From contig NC_052355.1 in NCBI RefSeq assembly GCF_009727055.1, positions 4,284,210 through 4,348,209 of the forward strand: 64,000 bases of DNA, given 5' to 3'. Source of the DNA: Benincasa hispida (taxonomy: Eukaryota; Streptophyta; Magnoliopsida; Cucurbitales; Cucurbitaceae). The position numbers were made by a program, and so were the translations under genes. The notes below the pieces were generated by a model that ran no database searches, was not told where the DNA came from, and saw only the letters and a program-made list of their open reading frames with translations. Positions 60,530 through 64,000 of this stretch are shown one piece after another (positions within the stretch are counted from its first letter, which is position 1; each line of letters starts with the position of its first letter).

Positions 60530-61702
60530 TTGCAAAGTGAATGGTTATTTCTTCTGTATGTGGTCCAAATCTGGTTGGTTCTACATCAAGGATTTGGAAA
60601 CTCGCAGGGTTCTTCCTCTCTCAAAGGTGTAGCTGAGTTGGTTTGTGGTACAAGTCTTAGAACTTTAGACTCCTCGAGCAAACTATTCCTTCTTAAAAAA
60701 GACAAAGGATGTGATGGAGTCAAAAAAATTTCCAAATTCAGGGATCTCTCCAGATGGGTTTTAAGACTTGTAGTATGGCCTTCTTCTACTGGTGGACGCT
60801 CCTACATCCATATCCAAGAAGGCCCTGAGCAAAAAGGATGGCTTTCCTTCTTTGGAATGCTTAAAAACTTTTTAAAGAAAAGTGAGAATGCAAGTCAGTT
60901 ACCAAAGAAGCCTCTATCAGATCTCAATTTTCTCACCAAGGACTCCCTAGTATCAAACTCACAAAGTTCATTTAGAACAAGTTTCGTGGATGTAGTGAAA
61001 GGAAAAGGAATCATCAATCGACCTACCTCAGACCCACAGCCATTGGTAGTAAAGCAAATCAAGAAGTCTTTTTGGGTGCAGAAGAACCATGAAGTTTACA
61101 AAGAAGATTTTAATAATTTATGGATCATCTCGAAACTTTTTGCATTCAATGAATGGAAGGAGATAGCAAAAATGTTGAAACAAGCCTTTCATACGACTGT
61201 CATTCTCAATCCCCTGTTTGCAGACAAAGCCTTAATCAAAGTAGACCAAGGAGATCTGGAAGAATTGATTGAAGAAACAGGCAAATGGCAGTCAATTGGG
61301 CCTTATCACCTACTCTTTGAAAGATGGAACAAAGAAAAACATGATTCTATCTTGAATCATTGGGATCCTCAAACTCTTTCATGGTCTACTCCCCTTAAAA
61401 ACATATTTCCTTCCTTGTTCGGAATTGCCACCAACCAAAATGGTTCTGTCTTGAATCATTGGGATCCTCAAACTCTTTCATGGTCTTTATATTTCAGAAG
61501 ACTTTTAAAGGAAAAAGAAATTTCAGAATTCCAAAATCTGCTATCCTTGGTGTCCAAGAAGGAGCCTTTAAACAGCCCAGATTCTCGTACATGGTCCCTA
61601 GAAGCCTGTGGTTCCTTCACAATAAAATCATTAATTAAACATCTTTCTTTGGCCTTACCTCTTGACATTTGTCTTCAAAAAAGCTATATGGAAGTCCAAT
61701 AG
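60530..61702 (+). CDS. Chimeric LINE ORF1-ORF2 frame, 390 codons
   Basis: The frame begins MQSEWLFLLYVVQIWLVLHQ. It includes the ORF1 blocks VVWPSSTGGRSYIHIQEG and FNNLWIISKLFAFNEWKEI, and DUF4283 up to LLFERWNKEKHDSI. It then passes straight into ORF2 C-terminal text, LNHWDPQTLSWS, LLKEKEISEFQNLLSLVS and LEACGSFTIKSL. The join keeps the reading frame. The zf-RVT continues in another frame at 61662-62003 and 62009-62194. The fusion probably arose by a deletion or template jump. Whether it is translated is unknown. Confidence 0.7.
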   Translation: MQSEWLFLLYVVQIWLVLHQGFGNSQGSSSLKGVAELVCGTSLRTLDSSSKLFLLKKDKGCDGVKKISKFRDLSRWVLRLVVWPSSTGGRSYIHIQEGPEQKGWLSFFGMLKNFLKKSENASQLPKKPLSDLNFLTKDSLVSNSQSSFRTSFVDVVKGKGIINRPTSDPQPLVVKQIKKSFWVQKNHEVYKEDFNNLWIISKLFAFNEWKEIAKMLKQAFHTTVILNPLFADKALIKVDQGDLEELIEETGKWQSIGPYHLLFERWNKEKHDSILNHWDPQTLSWSTPLKNIFPSLFGIATNQNGSVLNHWDPQTLSWSLYFRRLLKEKEISEFQNLLSLVSKKEPLNSPDSRTWSLEACGSFTIKSLIKHLSLALPLDICLQKSYMEVQ

Positions 61703-62194
61703 CCCTCGAAGAGTGAACATTACAATATGGATCATGCTTTTTGGAGCCCTAAACTGCTCTCCAGTCTTGCAACAAAAACTACCCTCCCATTTTCTTTCTC
61801 CCAATCAATGTGCTTTATGCAAATCAGAAGGGGAAGATCTACAACACATATTCTTCGACTGTATTTATTCCAGAAACTATTGGAGATCTCTTTTTAAAAG
61901 CTTCAATATTTGTTGGATATTCGACATAGAAGCAATGTGCAGTAGATTCTTATTGGACCTTTTCTCAAGAAATCTTCAAATCTGTTATGGATTAATGCAA
62001 TAAAAGCCTTGCTCATTGAATTATGGTTTGAAAGAAATCAAAGAGTTTTCCAAGACAAAGAAATTCCTTGGTTCGTTCGATTTGAAGCTGCCAAATGTAA
62101 CGCTTTACAATGGTGCTCTCTATCTAAAGTATTTGTAGCATACTCTCTCCAAGATATATGTTTAAAGTGGCAAGCTTTCATCCATTCGGAATGA
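61662..62194 (+). pseudogene. LINE zf-RVT remnant
   Basis: 61662-62003 reads RRVNITIWIMLFGALNCSPV and NQCALCKSEGEDLQHIFFDC. 62009-62194 reads [20 protein letters not shown]. The two are separated by one stop. This is the 3' coding end of the inner LINE. Confidence 0.85.
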
Positions 62195-63446
62195 CAGACA
62201 CATAAAGTGAAGGGTCCCTTTTCCAGCCAAGAGTGGTCTAGCAGCTTAGATTCTTGTTTTTGTTTTTCACTCGCTTTGTATTAAGTTCTTTGAAGGATGT
62301 TTTCAACACCTCTTTTGCTTTTTGGTCGATTTGTCAGAGTTACTCTTAACATTGATATTTGAGTTAGTTTGGTTTGGATATGATGAGGGCGCTAAGGGGG
62401 TGTCAACCTAGTTGAGATCCTTTTTTATATATCGCTTTGTTTCAAGCACACATCTCTTGTACTTTCTTTTTATTCATTAATAAAAAGTCTTGTTTCCTTT
62501 AAAAAAAAAAAAAGTCGATAACTTCTTTATTCGAAAATCTAAAGATGACATGGGGGTCGTAAAACTCTCAAAATTTAAAGATATCTCAGGGTGGGTGATG
62601 AGATGTGTCGTTTTGCCTGCTTCCGGTGGTCGATCATTTATTCCTGTGTCAATGGGTCCGCAACTTCAGGGTTGGATGTCATTCTCTGGTATGTTGAGAG
62701 GTTTTTTAACCAGGTAAGAAGGTGAAACGGCTGGGAAATTGACAAGGGTGGAATTGGTTGAATTGTCGGCATTGCCTCCAAAAAACGCTAAGGTGAATGT
62801 GATGGAATATCTGAATAAGGATAAGAAAGCTTTTCTTCAAAGTAATCACCCAACTTCTAAGGAGCAGCAGGCCCCGTTTCTGCATCAGTAAAAGAGAGCA
62901 TTCCTTTTTCGATAAAAGGAATGCATATCCTCCTATTGGGTACATAAAAATAATGTTGTGTTCAAGGAAGATTTTAGTAGTCTGTGGGTTATATCAAGGC
63001 TGTTTTTGTTTAATGATTGGAAGGACATTTCAAAACTCCTAAAGGACTATTTTCAAACCAAGGTAAATCATCAATCCTCTGTTTGCAGACAAGGCATTTA
63101 TTTAGAATACCTTCAGGAAATCTGGAAGAGATGGTTGAGAATCCGGGTAAGTGGCAGATGTTTGGGCCTTTTCATCTTCTTTTCGAAAAATGGGATAGCT
63201 TCAAGCATAGTAGGCCAGAAATAGTAAAAGGTTTTGGTGGTTGGATCATAAAAAAATTGCCTCTTGATTAATGGAGCAATAGCGTTAAGAACAGGAGAGC
63301 TTATTTTGGAGGGCTTGAAAGCATTACATACTTTGAACATGATCAACTACTCGGAAGCTAAGATTAAGGTTAGACAAATTTTATGCGGTTATATGCTGGC
63401 TAAGAAGCACAAACACAAATACGGATATATGATAGGGATACGATAC

Positions 63447-63607
63447 GATATGGCGATATGTTAATTTCTAAAAAGCTAAGATACGGATACGTTGAAGATA
63501 TGTTATATATCTGTCTCTTATACACATCTAGATGTGTATAAGAGACAGTATGATATGGCGATATGTTAATTTCTAAAAAGCTAAGATACGGATACGTTGA
63601 AGATATG

Positions 63608-63615
<8 letters not shown>
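63447..63615. repeat. 64-bp exact direct repeat around an adapter-like palindrome
   Basis: 63447-63510 and 63552-63615 are identical, both opening gatatggcgatatgttaatt and ending atgttatatat. Between them lie the 38-bp palindrome and three extra bases (tat). The pattern is what a chimeric, adapter-joined read leaves in an assembly. Confidence 0.9.
63511..63548. other. Tn5/Nextera mosaic-end junction (probable assembly contaminant)
   Basis: The first half is CTGTCTCTTATACACATCT and the second half is its exact reverse complement, the 19-bp mosaic end recognised by Tn5 transposase. Head-to-head copies make the junction adapter of Nextera mate-pair libraries. Plant genomes are not known to contain it naturally. 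It should be treated as adapter sequence. Confidence 0.93.

Positions 63616-63646
<31 letters not shown>
63608..63646. repeat. (TA)n microsatellite
   Basis: A 39-base alternating TA run directly after the adapter-flanking repeat. It probably made the local assembly unstable. Confidence 0.95.
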
Positions 63647-63670: not shown

Positions 63671-64000
63671 TTATTTCTGCAGGGACATTTTCAGAAGATG
63701 CTTCCTTTGAGAAAATGGCTTAGAACGAACCACATCAACATAAGATCTCAAAGGACCAAAGCCAAAATTCTTCGCACCTGATTCGTTATAAACTTCAACT
63801 TCTCGTGTGCTTTTAATTCGAACAGACGGAGAAGCAGGGGATGAAGCAATACAGTCAGTGATGATACCTTTGAATGCCAACCAGCCCTTCTTGTTAGCTA
63901 CTAATGGAACGTGTATATAACCTTTCTTCCTCCCGTCTCCGGCCAAACCACACATTCCATAGACCATCCATCCTGAGAACGAAACTTCAAAAGACGAATT
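63671..64000 (-). mobile_element. LINE ORF1 fragment running off the right edge
   Basis: The minus strand reads DGRKKGYIHVPLVANKKGWL, then FGPLRSYVDVVRSKPFSQ. This matches the VWPxTGGRxxIHI region and spacer of the ORF1s at 55567 and 60530. It is in the opposite orientation to the outer LINE before it. Confidence 0.75.

Follow-up and report, generated by a model that had tools for sequence, protein, structure and literature searches.

Near the downstream end of a stretch of 64,000 nucleotides from wax gourd (Benincasa hispida; C7:4284210-4348209), referred to here in its whole length as the window, lies a short and perfectly symmetrical sequence. It raises the question of whether it belongs to the plant or was left behind by the laboratory procedures behind the assembly. 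Positions 63511-63548 read CTGTCTCTTATACACATCTAGATGTGTATAAGAGACAG, a perfect 38-bp palindrome with arms of 19 nt, 100% complementarity, and a spacer of 0. The halves, CTGTCTCTTATACACATCT and AGATGTGTATAAGAGACAG, are both exact 19-bp Tn5 mosaic ends placed head to head, so that the sequence-only reading of the palindrome was exact in structure and position. When the mosaic-end 19-mer was searched with up to two mismatches, one match per strand occurred in the window, both within the palindrome, and no match occurred in 100 dinucleotide shuffles of the window. The other spacer-free perfect palindromes of the window with arms of at least 9 were (TA)n tracts and two palindromes with arms of 10 and 9.

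With a probability of about 98%, positions 63511-63548 are a Nextera-type junction adapter of a mate-pair library that escaped trimming and was built into a largely short-read assembly. The palindrome is a laboratory artefact and no genuine part of the plant genome, and its use is that of a quality flag. In mate-pair chemistry, Tn5 adds a 19-bp mosaic end to both ends of long fragments, and circularization joins two mosaic ends into a 38-bp palindrome. The Nextera junction has the sequence of the palindrome, and a head-to-head order is expected from the ligation of two adapter-bearing ends. All 38 of 38 bases are identical to a biotin-labelled ring adapter printed in PMC7357533, the one paper with this 38-mer in the literature searched, where it served to circularize fragments of ~4 kb that were sheared by ultrasound, without tagmentation. 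In passages of PMC6298255, the Nextera Mate Pair workflow consists of a tagmentation step that adds biotinylated junction adapters, then strand displacement and streptavidin capture, with junction adapters trimmed by NxTrim; the adapter sequence is absent from these passages. The difference from a normal junction adapter is that this one stands inside an assembly, where trimming was due, and that the duplication surrounding it is read as a product of assembly.

The scale of the phenomenon was assessed in the whole assembly (1791 contigs with a total of 912,946,352 bases), where the 38-mer occurred 9,991 times at unrelated places, compared to 0 occurrences of the reversed control, with only exact copies counted. 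This amounts to one copy per 91 kb on average, which makes a single copy in a window of 64 kb ordinary. Matches to the single mosaic-end 19-mer numbered 10,766 on the forward and 10,764 on the reverse strand, so that ~93% of the 19-mers were found in full head-to-head junctions. Roughly 775 mosaic ends per strand were not part of a complete, exact 38-bp junction, and some of these lay near one (e.g., at C1:649754 and C1:2390224).

Since the 19-bp mosaic end is common to shotgun and mate-pair Nextera chemistry, untrimmed adapter from ordinary Nextera shotgun libraries could be considered instead of a mate-pair junction, and the ~775 19-mers per strand that stand outside a full junction would fit such an origin. 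However, read-through of shotgun fragments would bring read-1 or read-2 tails with it, while the 33-mer composed of the Nextera read-1 tail and the mosaic end had 0 exact matches in the whole assembly. In the window, neither the Nextera read-1 14-mer, the read-2 15-mer, nor the TruSeq 13-mer occurred within two mismatches. The head-to-head form is furthermore the rule, accounting for 9,991 of 10,766 forward matches, and it comes without shotgun tails (read-1 exact and genome-wide, read-2 within the window). A shotgun origin is therefore very improbable. A TruSeq 33-mer likewise had 0 exact matches in the whole assembly, and carry-over of either shotgun Nextera read-1 or TruSeq adapters was rejected on these searches. 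It follows that the adapter of a circularization junction entered the assembly, and not these two. The claim of the sequence-only reading that a mate-pair junction adapter had been carried into the contig thus gained support from the identity with the printed ring adapter, the 9,991 copies, and the absence of both 33-mers. Linkers of the 454 and loxP types were also discarded, as their best matches in the window had 17-18 mismatches.

A real insertion of a Tn5-type element, or of an engineered, payload-free mini-transposon with mosaic ends, would place the ends in the same order, with CTGTCTCTTATACACATCT as the left end and the complement of CTGTCTCTTATACACATCT as the right end. Natural Tn5/IS50 ends have the same length of 19 bp and the same general sequence. 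The mosaic end, however, is a designed hybrid of two natural Tn5 ends, and of its 19 positions 3 differ from the outside end and 4 from the inside end. Between the two ends at 63511-63548 there is 0 bp, and thus neither cargo nor a transposase. Tn5 insertion leaves a target duplication of 9 bp. Copies of the palindrome were compared in a non-random plant sample of 51 of the 9,991 junctions, namely the one of the window and 50 that lie in 40 stretches within the first 6.1 Mb of C1. An exact 9-bp duplication adjoining the palindrome occurred at none of these 51, and the duplication at the site in the window was 64-67 bp long. At one sampled junction (L141), a direct duplication of 10 bp, close to the 9 bp of Tn5, adjoins both sides of the palindrome. 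A total of 9,991 identical copies would in addition require a burst of an element without coding capacity. A real insertion in the plant genome is accordingly extremely improbable, and a native transposon was rejected for the lack of exact 9-bp duplications in the sample and of cargo.

The immediate surroundings of the palindrome are duplicated. An exact direct repeat of 64 bp occupies 63447-63510 (+), where it adjoins the palindrome, and 63552-63615 (+), where it runs into a (TA)n tract, with an offset of 105. The three bases TAT at 63549-63551 (+) separate the palindrome from the second copy, and two of the three match the TAC that precedes the first copy at 63444-63446. Taken together, the repeat and these bases imply an overlap of 67 bp with 99% identity and an excess of 105 bp. 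The two identical 64-bp local copies put forward from the sequence alone were confirmed, and the excess agrees with the ~105 bp that had been estimated in the same way. A natural tandem repeat was dismissed, as Tandem Repeats Finder at default score listed only a (TA)19 microsatellite just downstream (63609-63646, +) and no array over the 64-bp unit. The window contains no N bases.

The (TA)19 tract could plausibly have made a contig break off, or left a gap, at this place. For a junction adapter to be incorporated there, reads crossing the junction would have been left untrimmed and used in building or closing contigs. At the weak spot beside (TA)19, one junction-bearing sequence may have run up to the side of 63510, while a second began on the side of 63549, its true starting point being 67 bp farther upstream. 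The palindrome, identical in both sequences, could then have been taken as their overlap, and the two joined. Such a false join through the palindrome would leave 67 bp of local sequence twice with the adapter in between, giving the 105 excess bases. The overlap of the joined ends would decide whether local sequence is doubled, as with 67 bp here, or not.

The sampled junctions show how far this overlap model may extend. Three of the 51 plant junctions had repeated 60-bp flanks, leaving 48 distinct ones. At 19 of these, the sequences on the two sides of the junction shared an exact block of 20 bp or more within a distance of 300 bp; at 29 they did not. The model would therefore cover only part of the sites, unless the 29 block-free junctions are joins with zero or negative overlap. 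Among the 33 plant stretches with a single junction, the site in the window included, 15 had a direct block of at least 20 bp across it, compared to 0/33 for inverted blocks and 0/99 for flanks swapped between sites. A control within the stretches was positive at 0 points, but with just three usable points it says little. In 12 of the 15 stretches the left copy adjoined the palindrome, and in four both copies did. N gaps were not seen next to the sampled junctions, and only one of the 41 sampled plant stretches contained an N, a single base.

A block of at least 20 bp was present at 42 of 140 prokaryotic junctions, with seven more near stretch ends left out. Of 97 prokaryotic stretches with a single junction, 22 had such a block and 13 had it adjoining both sides. 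The corresponding controls were positive in 1/97 stretches for inverted blocks, 3/291 for swapped flanks, and 12/291 for control points within the stretches, N runs being left unmasked throughout the prokaryotic stretches. One of the 97 stretches (L065) carried an exact 9-bp duplication.

These structures also bear on whether the same artefact arose by another joining step, in which the two adapter-bearing ends of a short fragment X joined each other and reads of the form X-J-X, J being the junction, were unrolled once or more by the assembler. Exact X-J-X structures, with X of at least 20 bp adjoining J on both sides, occurred in 4/33 plant and 13/97 prokaryotic single-junction stretches. One plant stretch (L170) had the structure X-J-X-J-X, and another (L146, G000:C1:2860251-2862789) contained four junctions at an exact spacing of 167 bp, an array resembling an assembly loop that was unrolled repeatedly. 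A loop through a short self-closed fragment would account for both the exact X-J-X and the multi-junction cases. Against self-closure stand the 29 of 48 plant junctions without a shared block, as well as two stretches from one Enterococcus assembly (L040 and L070), in which X is only 20 bp and, by general knowledge, too short for a double-stranded circle. At the site in the window, three bases with one mismatch separate J from the second copy. Self-closure as the joining step at this site is on balance unlikely, although it retains some weight, and it is rather doubtful that the X-J-X duplications as such go back to short fragments with adapter ends that closed on themselves and were unrolled in assembly. 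If they did, the duplication lengths over the 9,991 sites would represent the size spectrum of very small DNA circles in mate-pair libraries.

Outside the plant, the exact 38-mer was found in seven IMG/VR stretches, at least 120 GTDB genome stretches, and five of 72,556 plasmid records. Among the 80 GTDB stretches listed, many came from the same few assemblies. The palindrome is common, base for base, to a plant, cyanobacteria, enterococci, and streptomycetes, which points to a reagent. Among the matches listed (L008-L127), several junctions each were embedded in bacterial reference genomes, including Enterococcus sp. 10A9_DIV0425 and 8G7_MSG3316 and Collinsella ihumii GD8. The same applied, again among the matches listed, to Scytonema tolypothrichoides VB-61278, Ideonella MAG2, and others. 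The plasmids carrying the 38-mer were NZ_CP032357.1, NZ_MT039157.1, NZ_KY978628.1, NZ_MF589339.1, and NZ_MF918372.1. The plasmid count was 14 places, and as the query is self-complementary, each site was perhaps counted on both strands.

The likely source paper for the wax gourd genome is PMC6856369, which gives a size of 913 Mb and five mate-pair libraries (2 and 8 kb) prepared by the "Illumina standard protocol". It describes assembly with ALLPATHS-LG, after which PBJelly was used to fill gaps from PacBio reads. The resulting 2197 scaffolds, 397 of them anchored, do not correspond exactly to the 1791 contigs searched here. "Nextera" and "adapter" each have 0 mentions in its main text. No report of junction-adapter contamination in this assembly was found in the literature searched, which is not proof of absence.

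The palindrome matters as data hygiene and is without biology of its own. At 38 bases each, the 9,991 copies have added ~380 kb of synthetic DNA to a plant assembly of chromosome scale (with contigs of 96 and 52 Mb), and part of the sampled sites also carry extra local duplication. Variant calls may be expected to contain false insertions and gene models to be broken, and a false palindromic repeat family may be expected as well, as may false matches to other contaminated records such as those in GTDB, IMG/VR, and plasmid collections. Beyond what had been proposed for this site before, the analysis adds the scale (9,991 copies) and the type of the adapter, and it speaks strongly against a transposon.

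The palindrome has one open frame (window positions 63513-63548), which by hand translation gives VSYTHLDVYKRQ. With an open frame, adapter carry-over could give false peptides in predicted proteins; the peptide VSYTHLDVYKRQ had no occurrence in the literature searched. At an E-value of 0.01, Pfam matches were absent from three neighbouring ORFs, at 60530-61702, at 62958-63224, and, on the minus strand, at 63671-64000. A reverse-transcriptase zinc-binding domain (zf-RVT, PF13966, E 3.7e-12) was identified at 61662-62003 (+) with ORFs at 60530-62194 around it, and this region together with the surrounding ORFs is likely a retrotransposon remnant.
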